Source of the DNA: Actinomycetes bacterium
GTDB taxonomy: Bacteria > Actinomycetota > Acidimicrobiia > Acidimicrobiales > Ilumatobacteraceae
Length of the DNA stretch: 53,428 bases
Assembly (NCBI GenBank): GCA_025351965.1
Contig: JANXUX010000184.1
Location: forward strand, 1 to 53,428
Reading direction: 5' to 3'
Shown here: positions 13,552 to 22,563 of the stretch, in pieces
How the letters are laid out: every line of letters begins with the position of its first letter
Position numbering within the stretch: position 1 is the stretch's first letter
Program-made: the position numbers and the translations under genes
Notes under the pieces: model-generated
Told to the model about the DNA's origin: nothing
What the model saw: the letters and a program-made list of their open reading frames with translations, nothing else
Databases searched by the model: none

Positions 13552-14805
13552 ATGGCGCTGCGCACGACCGGACTGTCCCACGACGAGACGCTGCAGGCGC
13601 TCGACGACCTCAAGGCTCACGATGTCCGCTGGCGCGAGGGCCGCGCGTTCACCCTGACGTACCACGGCGGCGACGACGTGGTGGCGCTCGCCGAGCAGGC
13701 GTATCAACGGTTCAGCACCGAGAACGCGCTGAACACCGAAGCGTTCCCCAGCCTGCGCACGATCCAGGCCGAGGTCGTCGACATCGCCCTCGGCTGGCTC
13801 GATGGGCCACCCGGGTCGGCGGGCTTCATGACGTCCGGCGGCACCGAGAGCATCCTCCTCGCTGTGAAGGGCTCGCGCGAGCGCGGGCGCAAGGAACGCA
13901 ACATCACGACGCCGAACATTGTTCTGCCGACGAGCGCCCACGCAGCGTTCGAAAAGGGCTGCTACTACTTCGGCGTGGAGAGCCGGCGCATTTCGGTGCG
14001 TGACGACTGGCGCGCCGATCCGGACGCGATGGCCGACGCGGTCGACGACAACACGGTGTTGATCGTCGGGTCTGCGCCGCAGTACCCGCAGGGTGTCATC
14101 GACCCGATCGAGGCCATCGCCGCGATCGCGCTGGACCGTGGCATCTCCTGCCACGTCGACGCCTGCATGGGTGGCGTGATCCTGCCGTACCTCGCCCGCC
14201 TCGGTCACGCCGTGCCGCCGTGGAACTTCGCGGTCGACGGGGTGACAAGCATGTCCGTCGACCTCCACAAGTTCGGCTACACCGCCAAGGGCGCCTCCGT
14301 CATCGCCTACCGCACCAAGCAGCTGCGCGCCTACCAGACCTACGTCACCGACAACTGGCTCGGCGGCGTCTACGGATCGTCCGGCATCCTCGGCACGAAG
14401 TCCGGCGGCTCGATGGGTGCGGCCTGGGCGGTGATGAACTACCTCGGCGACGAGGGTTACCTGCGCCTCGCCGCATCCGCCCGTCGTGCCGCCGAGGAGC
14501 TCGTCGCCGGCGTGCAGGCCCGCAAGATGCTCTCGCTGCGCGCCCTGCCGGACACCTGCCTGGTCACGTTCGGCGCCGCCGAGGACTCGGGCCTCGACGT
14601 GTTCGCGGTCGCCGATGCGCTGTGGCGCCGCGGCTGGTTCGTCGACAAGCAGGGCCCGCCCGCGTCGCTCCACCTCACCGTCAACGCCGTCCACGACGGC
14701 AAGATCCCGGCGTTCCTCGCCGACCTGGACGCGTCCATCGCCGAAGTCATCGCGTCGGCGGCCGCCGACCCGGCGACGATGGGCAGCTACGGCACCGTCG
14801 AGTAG
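13552..14805 (+). CDS. PLP-dependent decarboxylase, sphingosine-1-phosphate-lyase-like
   Basis: This 417-residue fold-type I PLP enzyme belongs to the group II decarboxylase superfamily. The phosphate-binding region is M-T-S-G-G-T-E-S-I-L-L-A, the ring-stacking and Asp region H-V-D-A-C-M-G-G, and the PLP Lys lies in S-V-D-L-H-K-F-G-Y-T-A-K-G. That last motif and the later Y-G-S-S-G-I-L-G-T-K-S-G-G resemble sphingosine-1-phosphate lyase and its bacterial relatives more than glutamate decarboxylase. Known relatives split phosphorylated long-chain bases or decarboxylate amino acids; the substrate here is not known. It ends about 200 bases before kbl. Confidence 0.8.
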   Translation: MALRTTGLSHDETLQALDDLKAHDVRWREGRAFTLTYHGGDDVVALAEQAYQRFSTENALNTEAFPSLRTIQAEVVDIALGWLDGPPGSAGFMTSGGTESILLAVKGSRERGRKERNITTPNIVLPTSAHAAFEKGCYYFGVESRRISVRDDWRADPDAMADAVDDNTVLIVGSAPQYPQGVIDPIEAIAAIALDRGISCHVDACMGGVILPYLARLGHAVPPWNFAVDGVTSMSVDLHKFGYTAKGASVIAYRTKQLRAYQTYVTDNWLGGVYGSSGILGTKSGGSMGAAWAVMNYLGDEGYLRLAASARRAAEELVAGVQARKMLSLRALPDTCLVTFGAAEDSGLDVFAVADALWRRGWFVDKQGPPASLHLTVNAVHDGKIPAFLADLDASIAEVIASAAADPATMGSYGTVE

Positions 14806-14820
14806 ACCTCGCCAGAAACC

Positions 14821-14880
14821 GACTGGGTGTGCGATCGGCCGCTGCTCGCTCCGAATTGAAGACTGGGTGTGCGATCGGCC
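14821..14880. repeat. 20-bp direct repeat, two copies 40 bp apart
   Basis: GACTGGGTGTGCGATCGGCC occurs exactly at 14821-14840 and 14861-14880. The spacing of 40 bases is close to four helical turns. It lies between the PLP decarboxylase and kbl. It could be a tandem regulator-binding site for the kbl-tdh operon or a recent small duplication. Confidence 0.75.
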
Positions 14881-14892
14881 CGCAAGCGGGCC
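14877..14892 (+). terminator. Short GC hairpin upstream of kbl
   Basis: GGCCCGC at 14877-14883 pairs with GCGGGCC at 14886-14892 over a two-base centre. There is no T-tract. It may terminate the upstream PLP decarboxylase transcript or form part of the kbl leader. Confidence 0.4.
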
Positions 14893-15003
14893 GTGTGAGC
14901 ACCCACTTCGCCGGCGGTGCCGTTGCGACGGCGATCCGTTCTACGCTGCGTTCGTGGACGCCGGCTCAGGTCGGCACAGTCGTACCGGGAACAGGAGCAT
15001 CGA

Positions 15004-16218
15004 GTGGACAATGGGATCACTGCACGGCTCGATGATTCGTTGGCCGAACTCCGCACGAACGGGCTGTTCAAACATGAGCGGGTGCTGCAGGGACCGCAGG
15101 GCGCGCATGTGCAGATCGGCGATGGCGACGGCGACCTGATCAACCTCTGCGCGAACAACTACCTCGGCCTCGCCAACCATCCGGCCGTCGTCGAGGCCGC
15201 ACACGCTGCGGTCGACCGCTACGGATACGGGATGGCGTCGGTGCGGTTCATCTGCGGGACGCAGACACCGCACCGGGAGCTCGAAGCTCGGCTGAGCGAC
15301 TTCCTCGGGATGCAGGACACGATCCTGTTCCCGTCGTGCTTCGACGCCAACGGCGGCCTGTTCGAGACGCTGCTCGACGAGCAGGACGCCGTGATCTCGG
15401 ACTCGCTCAACCACGCCAGCATCATCGACGGCATCCGGCTGAGCAAGGCCAAGCGCCTCCGCTACGAGAACAACGACATGGCCGATCTCGAGCGGTGCCT
15501 GCAGGAATCCTCGGGGGCGAGATCGCGTCTGATCGCGACCGATGGTGTGTTCTCGATGGACGGAACCATCGCCGATCTCGCCGGGATCTGCGACCTCGCC
15601 GAGCGGTACGACGCAATGGTGATGGTCGACGACTCGCACGCGACCGGCTTCATGGGCGCGACCGGCCGGGGCACACACGAGCACTGCGGGGTCATGGGCC
15701 GCGTCGACATCCTCACCGGCACGCTCGGCAAAGCCCTCGGCGGCGCAAGCGGCGGCTATGTGTCGGCGAGCGCCAGTGTCGTCGGCTGGCTGCGTCAGCG
15801 GGCCCGGCCCTACCTGTTCTCGAACAGCGTCCCGCCGATCGTTGCCGCTGTCACCCTGCGCGTGCTCGAGCTCATCGCCGAGGATCCGTCTCTCCGCAGC
15901 GCCGTCCATGGCAACGCACGGCAATTCCGTGCCGGGCTCACAACGGCTGGTTTCACGATGCCCGACGGTGAGCACCCGATCATCCCGGTGATGTTCGGCG
16001 ACGCGGCGCTCGCCTCACGGATGGCCGATGCACTCCTGCACCGAGGCATCTACGTGATCGGCTTCTCGTACCCGGTCGTCCCGATGGGCGCAGCCCGGAT
16101 TCGCACCCAGATGTCGGCAGCGCTCACCGCCGCAGATCTCGACGCGGCGATCGCCGCCTTCACCGAGGTGGGCACGGATCTCGGCGTGATCGGCGCGATC
16201 GGAGCACGTAGCGGATGA
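15004..16218 (+). CDS. kbl: Glycine C-acetyltransferase (2-amino-3-ketobutyrate CoA ligase)
   Basis: Kbl uses PLP and CoA to cleave 2-amino-3-ketobutyrate to glycine and acetyl-CoA, the second step of threonine catabolism. The 404-residue protein shows [19 protein letters not shown], the PLP aspartate segment [10 protein letters not shown], and [12 protein letters not shown] with the PLP lysine. The GTG at 15004 is chosen because AGGAG lies six bases upstream. Its stop overlaps the tdh start (ATGA), so the pair is an operon. It stands upstream of a glycine riboswitch and gcvP, matching a route from threonine through glycine to one-carbon units. Confidence 0.95.
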
Positions 16219-18751: not shown

Positions 18752-21610
<2,859 letters not shown>

Positions 21611-21630: not shown

Positions 21631-22386
21631 ATGAGCGACACCACTCCCCCTGCCGACGGCCTGCCTGGGATCGGCGACCTGTTCGCGATGCTCGGTCTCG
21701 GCAACCCGCTGGCCTCGGTCGGCAAGAGCGTCGAACAGTTCAAGCGCGGCGTGAACGACTTCCTCGTCGCGGTCGAGACGTTCAACGAGACGATGCAGAC
21801 CATCAACGGGGTCGCTGCCCGGGTGAGCAGCCTGCTCGACGATGTCGAGGCACCGATCCGCGCCGCCGTACCGCCGCTGACCCGGACCATCACGACAGCT
21901 GACGCACTGATCCAGCAGATCAGCGGACCGATCGAACAGGTCGCGCCGGGCATCGCCCGCCTCGCCGACACGCTCTCGTCGCCGGTGTTGACGGCGTTGC
22001 CCAACGAGCTCGGTCAGTTCCTCGAGACCATCAGCGATCTCGGCCGTCGACTCCAGCCGCTGTCGCAGATGGCCGAGAGCGCCGGCGGCCTCTTCGGCGG
22101 ATTCACCAATCCCCTCGCGTCGATGTTCGGTGGTGGCCGCTCGACTGGCGCCGCAGCACCCACGGCGGTCCCCATGCCGCCCGCCCCGCCGCCAGTTCCG
22201 GCTGCAAACGCCGAGGCCGCCGCGAAGAATGCAGCCCCACGCAAGCCCGCTGCTTCGAAGCAGACGGCTGCACCGACAGGCGCCGCGAAAGCCGCCGCGA
22301 AGGGCGCCGCGCCGAAACAGGGGTCGACATCGAAGGGCGCCGCACCGAGGAAGATCGCCCCGAAACCGCGAGTCAAGCGCGCCTGA
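21631..22386 (+). CDS. Hypothetical protein with helical core and histone-H1-like tail
   Basis: This 251-residue protein is not recognised. Residues 1-160 are amphipathic helix with heptad-like patterns (for example V-E-Q-F-K-R-G-V-N-D-F-L-V-A-V-E-T-F), resembling phasin-like or apolipoprotein-like coiled coils. The final 80 residues are almost only Ala, Lys, Pro and Thr (A-A-K-A-A-A-K-G-A-A-P-K), like actinobacterial H1-type or phasin tails that bind nucleic acid or polymer. No signal peptide is seen. It follows gcvP after 20 bases and may be co-transcribed. ATG 21631 is the best start. Confidence 0.65.
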   Translation: MSDTTPPADGLPGIGDLFAMLGLGNPLASVGKSVEQFKRGVNDFLVAVETFNETMQTINGVAARVSSLLDDVEAPIRAAVPPLTRTITTADALIQQISGPIEQVAPGIARLADTLSSPVLTALPNELGQFLETISDLGRRLQPLSQMAESAGGLFGGFTNPLASMFGGGRSTGAAAPTAVPMPPAPPPVPAANAEAAAKNAAPRKPAASKQTAAPTGAAKAAAKGAAPKQGSTSKGAAPRKIAPKPRVKRA

Positions 22387-22403: not shown

Positions 22404-22514
22404 ACCCTGTTGGATTCGCCTCCTCAGGGGCGGCGAATGCGTCAGCGTTGCCGGCCGATCCACGGACCCTGTTGGATTCGCCCCCTCAGGGGCGGCGAAT
22501 GCGTCAGGGTTGCC
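22404..22514. repeat. Two 49-bp hairpin repeats with 62-bp period
   Basis: Copies lie at 22404-22452 and 22466-22514 with only two differences. Each begins ACCCTGTTGGATTCGCC and contains a 7-bp stem ATTCGCC/GGCGAAT around a C/G-rich centre. They lie between convergent transcription units. They look like a REP-type repeat or a double bidirectional terminator. There is no transposase. Confidence 0.75.
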
Positions 22515-22538
22515 CGCAGACGCCGCAGACGCCACAGA

Positions 22539-22563
22539 CGCCGCCGCCGGCGCTGCGGCGGCG
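22539..22563 (-). terminator. 9-bp hairpin directly after the gcvT stop
   Basis: CGCCGCCGC at 22539-22547 pairs perfectly with 22555-22563 around a seven-base loop, immediately downstream of the gcvT stop on the minus strand. No U-tract. Just upstream are short CAGACGCC repeats. Terminator function is inferred from placement. Confidence 0.55.

Follow-up and report, generated by a model that had tools for sequence, protein, structure and literature searches.

A dispersed REP-like palindrome family with a recurrent 62-bp spacing at gene ends in Ilumatobacteraceae

Introduction

REPs are divided into the GTAG and CGTC superfamilies (PMC3733652). According to the available portion of that source, CGTC REPs have no dedicated transposase, form 8-9-bp stems that start with A-T pairs and enclose loops of 4-5 nt, and are found between convergent genes, close to both 3′ ends. 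The CGTC-tagged REPs (Di Nocera et al. 2013) include dRS3 of Neisseria as well as RPE-4 and RPE-6 of Rickettsia, and actinobacteria are not among the phyla given for them, nor is that word used, in the same portion (PMC3733652). REPs usually exceed 100 copies; in E. coli, a contribution to Rho-dependent termination has been reported for them, and binding of gyrase and IHF for BIMEs (PMC2817692, accessible sections).

The repeat described here, referred to as family A, was encountered in the actinobacterial family Ilumatobacteraceae. The window, i.e., the whole 53,428-nt stretch of DNA that was analyzed, is contig C360 of a 4.84-Mb draft genome (456 contigs, 93.5% complete).

The Window Pair

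The palindromes and their neighbors in the window are the following:

21631..22386, plus strand: left convergent gene with an Ala/Lys-rich tail and no Pfam family at 1e-5 (codon-based gene caller)
22404..22448, no strand assigned: family A palindrome copy 1, dyad center 22426 by ungapped pairing, model score 66.1 bits
22449..22465, no strand assigned: 17-bp linker, of which the length but not the sequence is kept between loci
22466..22510, no strand assigned: family A palindrome copy 2, dyad center 22488 by ungapped pairing, model score 68 bits
22564..23631, minus strand: right convergent gene gcvT (PF01571, PF08669)

The original prediction of a duplicated 49-bp hairpin unit between convergent genes is borne out by the sequence. 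The two 49-bp units (22404-22452 and 22466-22514) carry exactly two differences, start 62 bp apart, and each harbor the 7-bp stem ATTCGCC...GGCGAAT, and the pair ends 18 and 51 bp from the left and right genes. The units are 93% alike when compared over 55 bp and 0.94 alike over 47 bp, with the likeness extending slightly into the linker. Judged from the sequence, the pair is a recent tandem duplication of a 62-bp unit, which explains the likeness of the two copies but not the wider family. A 33-base unit pattern with up to three mismatches matches the 4.84-Mb genome only at the two window copies, with 0 matches for the control, so their likeness is beyond chance; further copies in the genome are more diverged than this pattern allows and were reached by BLASTN or a covariance model.

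When folded alone as RNA, copy 2 is more stable than its shuffles (z of −2.56 on the plus and −2.18 on the minus strand) and copy 1 is no better than its shuffles (z of −0.93 and −1.01, respectively). Folded together, both copies reach a z of −3.09. Directly after copy 2, at 22514-22549, lie three 9-bp direct repeats (CCGCAGACG-like).

At gathering scores, the sole Rfam matches in the window are two glycine riboswitch aptamers, and thus no known RNA family was matched by the repeats. The aptamers are in tandem (RF00504, 18515-18723, plus strand, 60.5 and 46.9 bits), just upstream of a 952-aa ORF (18752-21610) that we take to be gcvP by its place and length.

Extent of the Family

BLASTN of the own genome returned diverged copies on other contigs, and a covariance model built from 12 copies identified at least 32 distinct palindromes at no fewer than 18 loci on 17 contigs (E < 0.01). 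Besides the window pair, at least 30 further palindromes are thus present at 17 or more other loci, in line with the suggested repeat family; the outcome that had been named as refuting it, an absence of further genome copies, did not occur. Owing to their near symmetry, many palindromes gave a match on each strand. The counts are lower bounds, since the model scored only the best first-look candidates per genome: 150 for the own genome, 100 in a 61-genome set, and 30 in a 200-genome set. When 418 kb of the own genome was scanned in full with the model, a single additional weak site appeared (E of 0.0009). The copies are dispersed, with flanks that are unrelated between loci. The family therefore has the attributes of REPs in the broad sense, being a dispersed extragenic palindromic repeat of many copies, although the number found so far in the own genome is below the more than 100 usual for REPs in the accessible sections of PMC2817692.

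Among 61 genomes (the own genome and 60 relatives), 10 contain a model match at 0.01. Strand matches at this threshold number at least 63 in the own genome, 31 or more in G004, and 28 or more in G005, the two of eight congeners that carry many copies. Seven other genomes have one or two matches each; these are weak, and none was taken as a member. Of these, the site in G024 shows no clear palindrome by eye, and that in G039, from another family of the order (L052, about 1495-1550), forms a near-perfect palindrome with a sequence of its own. The latter has the core GGATT-TCCGCC...GGCGGAGAATCC, stands directly after a TGA, and scores 9.6e-8 with the model. In the 200 genomes of the taxonomic family, only the own genome (G000), G004, and G005 pass 1e-5 among the best 30 first-look candidates per genome. 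A half-site pattern with up to three mismatches behaves similarly, with 21, 13, and 9 matches in the three carriers and 1 in total in the six other congeners; its backward control gave 0, 1, and 0 matches in the carriers and 1 in the other congeners.

No match to the repeats was found in a phage collection. In viral contigs, the long pattern had no match and the half pattern had one, which was taken as chance because it lies inside an ORF and has no model match. A plasmid origin was also discarded: one plasmid record matches query bases 128-174 only, to the right of the repeats. No such family in actinobacteria was found in the titles and abstracts of the open-access literature searched.

Genomic Context

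Genes were assigned with a simple codon-based caller; the genomes are mostly drafts, and several copies lie near contig ends. Both neighbors were called for 14 of the 18 loci found in the own genome, which comprise 11 convergent, 3 tandem, and 0 divergent junctions. The remaining four loci, at contig edges, have a plus-strand gene on the left or a minus-strand gene on the right. As background, 418 kb of the same genome contain 362 junctions, of which 69 are convergent (binomial P of 2.5e-6 for the 11 of 14); this sample is not random in that some contigs were chosen for holding copies. The preference is weaker in G004 and G005, in which 17 loci are divided into 8 convergent, 7 tandem, and 2 divergent junctions (P of 0.008). 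The palindromes of the own genome are frequently located no more than some tens of bases from both gene ends, and their place, mostly at the 3′ ends of convergent or tandem genes, is that of REPs in the broad sense. Thus, the REP-type likeness that had been proposed extends to the gene context.

A Pfam scan of 20 neighboring proteins assigned a family to 15 (e.g., thiolase, prolidase, GatB, and CoA ligase) and none to 5, with no transposase family among them.

Palindromes are also common at convergent junctions outside family A. Those scoring at least 14 of 21 occupy 16 of 29 convergent, 13 of 89 tandem, and 5 of 56 divergent junctions of the own genome. After subtraction of five clear family A junctions, the excess persists (11 of 24 convergent vs 17 of 144 others; Fisher P of 0.0002). 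GACG-(N)-ATTC was considered as a motif common to the other convergent junctions and is not claimed, as it occurs in 5 of 40. Two palindromes with alike arms (ACTGGGTG...CGGCCC) occur at tandem junctions (window 14805-15040 and L234 8642-8727) and perhaps represent another dispersed family.

A 20-base motif B (GAATCTCCACGTGACGAAAC) has 100 matches in G004 with up to three mismatches, vs 0 for the control, and 3 to 12 in the other eight genomes. It often forms facing arrays, the left one made up of plus-strand and the right one of minus-strand copies, and family A copies are enclosed by it at L090, L092, L094, L095, L096, and L104. At five G004 loci (L199, L200, L094, L096, and L198), the copy numbers on both arms are similar (6+6 in L094 and 4+4 in L200), and the spacing within arrays is about 55-63 bp except in L198, where it is about 157 bp. 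Further palindromic modules lie between motif B pairs (L213, L215, and L216; L092, L095, L104, and L203), one type being GCGTCCC...GGGACGATT and another GCCACA...TGTGG.

Spacing and Linker

Four of 69 copies were left out of the letter-by-letter set because of an even center or a contig edge, and 65 remained. With dyad centers placed by ungapped pairing, 23 of the 31 adjacent pairs show a center-to-center distance of exactly 62 bp, independent of the relative orientation of the copies. The other spacings are 63 (two pairs), 61.5, 53.5, 68, 97, 131, and 135 bp. Between loci, the likeness over the 15 central bases of the linker is 0.41, a slight excess over the 0.38 of shuffled sequences.

Tandem duplication plainly accounts for several rows (0.85-1.0 alike), and adjacent full-length copies can be as little as 0.60 alike; the mean likeness of copies between loci within one genome is 0.68. 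Likeness and spacing were compared for 30 pairs, 22 of them at 62 bp, the pair with a truncated copy being left out. The exact spacing occurs in 11 of 14 pairs of copies that are at most 0.75 alike and in 11 of 16 pairs of more similar copies. The linker length should drift before the likeness falls so far, an argument rather than a fitted model. A lattice of 31-bp half-sites is not claimed, since the centroid of the outer arms depends on where the border is set (15.4 to 17.5).

Inner Stem and Outer Arms

Covariation is confined to the inner stem; in the outer arms, which are conserved, pairing is no better than chance. Counted with one copy per locus over 36 loci (2 of the 65 copies dropped), the inner positions (d3-10) form 229.2 pairs against 196.6 ± 5.3 expected, and the outer positions (d11-23) form 300.7 against 302.4 ± 7.0. 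In the own genome alone, the corresponding values are 188 vs 170.1 (P of 0.0005) and 260 vs 269.3 (P of 0.93). An early count on 12 copies, in which inner and outer positions were not split, gave no covariation above shuffles. A further analysis, which likewise showed conserved outer arms that do not covary, dropped 3 of the 65 copies: one mis-centered, one a weak match inside a gene, and one an exact duplicate. At d16, where either half favors A or T, A/T clashes number 25 and matched A or T pairs 19; at d13, where G or C predominates, there are 26 clashes and 29 matches. The stem starts with ATT or ATC in 107 of 126 halves, with odd centers and a loop taken as 5.

If the function were that of a hairpin only, partner positions should covary along the arms. 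The outer arms are instead kept as sequence, twice and inverted, rather than as pairs, and thus look like symmetric duplex sites. The model itself rewards pairing along the whole stem and should have favored pairing of the outer arms too. Copy errors may perfect palindromes in the absence of selection and are a possible source of the inner covariation. No T-run was found on either strand, making a classical intrinsic (U-run) terminator unlikely: the T fraction at d24-35 is 0.04-0.19 against a background of 0.16, and 5 T in 8 bases occur in only 2 of 126 flanks.

Orthologous Junctions

Three junctions are orthologous by their genes. At L090 (G004) and L106 (G005), where the flanking proteins are 90-99% alike, the row, the linker (12 of 15 bases), and the 62-bp spacing are kept, while much of the sequence outside the row no longer aligns. 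At L077 (own genome) and L102 (G005), with flanking proteins 71-90% alike, the 62 bp is kept and the linker agrees at 4 of 15 bases, about chance. The L077 copies resemble each other more (0.87 alike) than they resemble their L102 counterparts (0.62-0.74), and one of the two may therefore have been remade or converted. L100 and L108 have a single copy in common.

The gcvT junction has no family A copy in the eight congeners, which indicates a high turnover. In G004 and G005, this junction instead holds a palindrome of similar size that is unrelated to family A. The replacing palindrome is ~47 bp long with the core TGTCATCG...CGATGACA (after 1731 of L190 in G005 and after 2556 of L191 in G004). 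A ranking of gcvT homologues, which included L118, sent 45 of 80 loci into the subsequent search. L118, from a record titled Bifidobacterium breve (MAG), encodes a gcvT 66% identical to that of the window and ranks beside uncultured Microthrix; its label looks wrong.

Comparison with Known Systems

Family A resembles CGTC REPs, as described in the available portion of PMC3733652, in its short stem with A-T and T-A as first pairs, its loop of 4-5 nt, the lack of a dedicated transposase, its proximity to both 3′ ends of convergent genes, and in that some spacers are alike in length and not in sequence. However, no CGTC adjoins the stem (0 of 107 half-flanks), CG-W-C being found one base further out on both sides. 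Relative to the same portion of that source, family A also differs in having long equal arms on both sides rather than one tag and a CCA tail, in holding one exact spacing, and in its host phylum, which is outside those given.

With GTAG REPs and REPINs, family A shares that it consists of extragenic palindromes, often paired, at 3′ ends. The tag GTAG is missing from the 12 most frequent flanking tetranucleotides, which together account for 97 of 107 half-flanks. The anticipated link to a RAYT transposase is not supported, as PF01797 (Y1_Tnp) at 0.01 has no match in any of the nine congeneric draft genomes and matches 6 of 14 controls.

Like BIMEs, family A forms regularly spaced palindromes, but unlike BIMEs with conserved linker motifs, its linker keeps length and not sequence. 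A symmetric hairpin near both gene ends is shared with bidirectional intrinsic terminators, from which family A is distinguished by the missing T-run, by outer arms that do not covary, and by related copies at many loci. In contrast to a CRISPR array, its short rows are dispersed at 18 or more loci, and adjacent full-length copies diverge widely. On the basis of these sequence features, we call family A a new variant of the REP kind that would belong to neither the GTAG nor the CGTC superfamily.

Functional Interpretation

The reading favored here, with roughly even confidence, is that of an orphan REP-like family acting as a two-way gene-end element. The unit would be a palindrome of ~45 bp, comprising a half-site of roughly AACCCTGWYGSATTC, a short stem with CCGG, a loop of ~5 nt, and the mirror image. 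Placed at gene 3′ ends, mostly between convergent genes, such palindromes would be retained for work on both gene ends: the element may help to end or slow transcription from both sides, or may fix the 3′ ends of both mRNAs. The outer arms would be bound as duplex DNA by a putative symmetric protein, and contact between neighboring complexes would set the 62 bp. We infer the gene-end function, the binding of the arms, and the contact-set spacing alike. Because palindromes are general at convergent junctions, and different ones occupy the same junction in relatives, a role for both gene ends is the likeliest. Set against this role are the missing T-run, the fold of copy 1, the 8 of 17 convergent loci in G004 and G005, the early count on 12 copies, the high turnover at gcvT, and the possible origin of the inner covariation in copy errors.

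It is possible, although rather unlikely, that family A is a duplex-DNA site only, with inverted half-sites for a dimeric DNA-binding protein in phased rows and nothing that acts as RNA. The binder could be a nucleoid protein, a gyrase-type enzyme, a recombinase, or another protein, and the convergent place would reflect supercoil management or mere tolerance. Conserved outer arms without covariation and an exact 62 bp regardless of linker sequence and relative orientation fit such a site; the covarying inner stem does not, and the protein search, which was for PF01797, found no candidate.

A spacing-coded DNA mark is an unlikely further reading: a sequence-specific dimeric protein of this lineage would bind the family A palindromes as symmetric sites at facing gene ends and would join neighboring sites only at 62 bp (~six helical turns), producing a barrier between converging transcription, and the other junction palindromes would do the same work.

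Family A could also be a selfish non-autonomous mobile repeat (REP, REPIN, or MITE) mobilized by a transposase either unknown or lost, for which convergent places would be the least harmful insertions and 62 bp the unit of old tandem duplications. This is quite unlikely. It would account for dispersed copies with unrelated flanks, the patchy distribution (3 of 200 family genomes among the best 30 first-look candidates per genome), the rows that are plain tandem duplications, and the copies inside inverted motif B pairs, which resemble terminal inverted repeats. However, neither a RAYT in the nine genomes nor a transposase family among the 20 flanking proteins was found, the spacing persists in pairs whose likeness does not exceed that of copies from separate loci, and rows are retained at orthologous junctions.

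Little credence is given to an element that works at the RNA level only, i.e., a bidirectional intrinsic terminator hairpin whose sequence was spread by chance. Its place at both gene ends, the generality of palindromes at convergent junctions, and the covarying inner stem are as expected for a terminator, yet the T-run is missing, covariation is lacking in the outer arms, where most of the conserved sequence lies, and terminators need no fixed 62-bp spacing. Finally, a simple local duplication with no wider meaning, although consistent with the likeness of the window copies and its slight extension into the linker, has practically no probability left and is refuted by the further palindromes at other loci and the 21 half-site matches vs 0 for the backward control.

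It is a long-standing question whether REPs act as parasites or as working parts. For family A, the absence of a RAYT among the genomes searched, the sharing of some orthologous gene ends between species, and an exact spacing despite linker change together argue for a working part. If the reading of the spacing as a set distance is true, a change of the spacing by half a helical turn should abolish the effect. The combination of a covarying stem with conserved arms that do not covary may also serve as a cheap test for RNA or cruciform function vs duplex-site function in other REP families.
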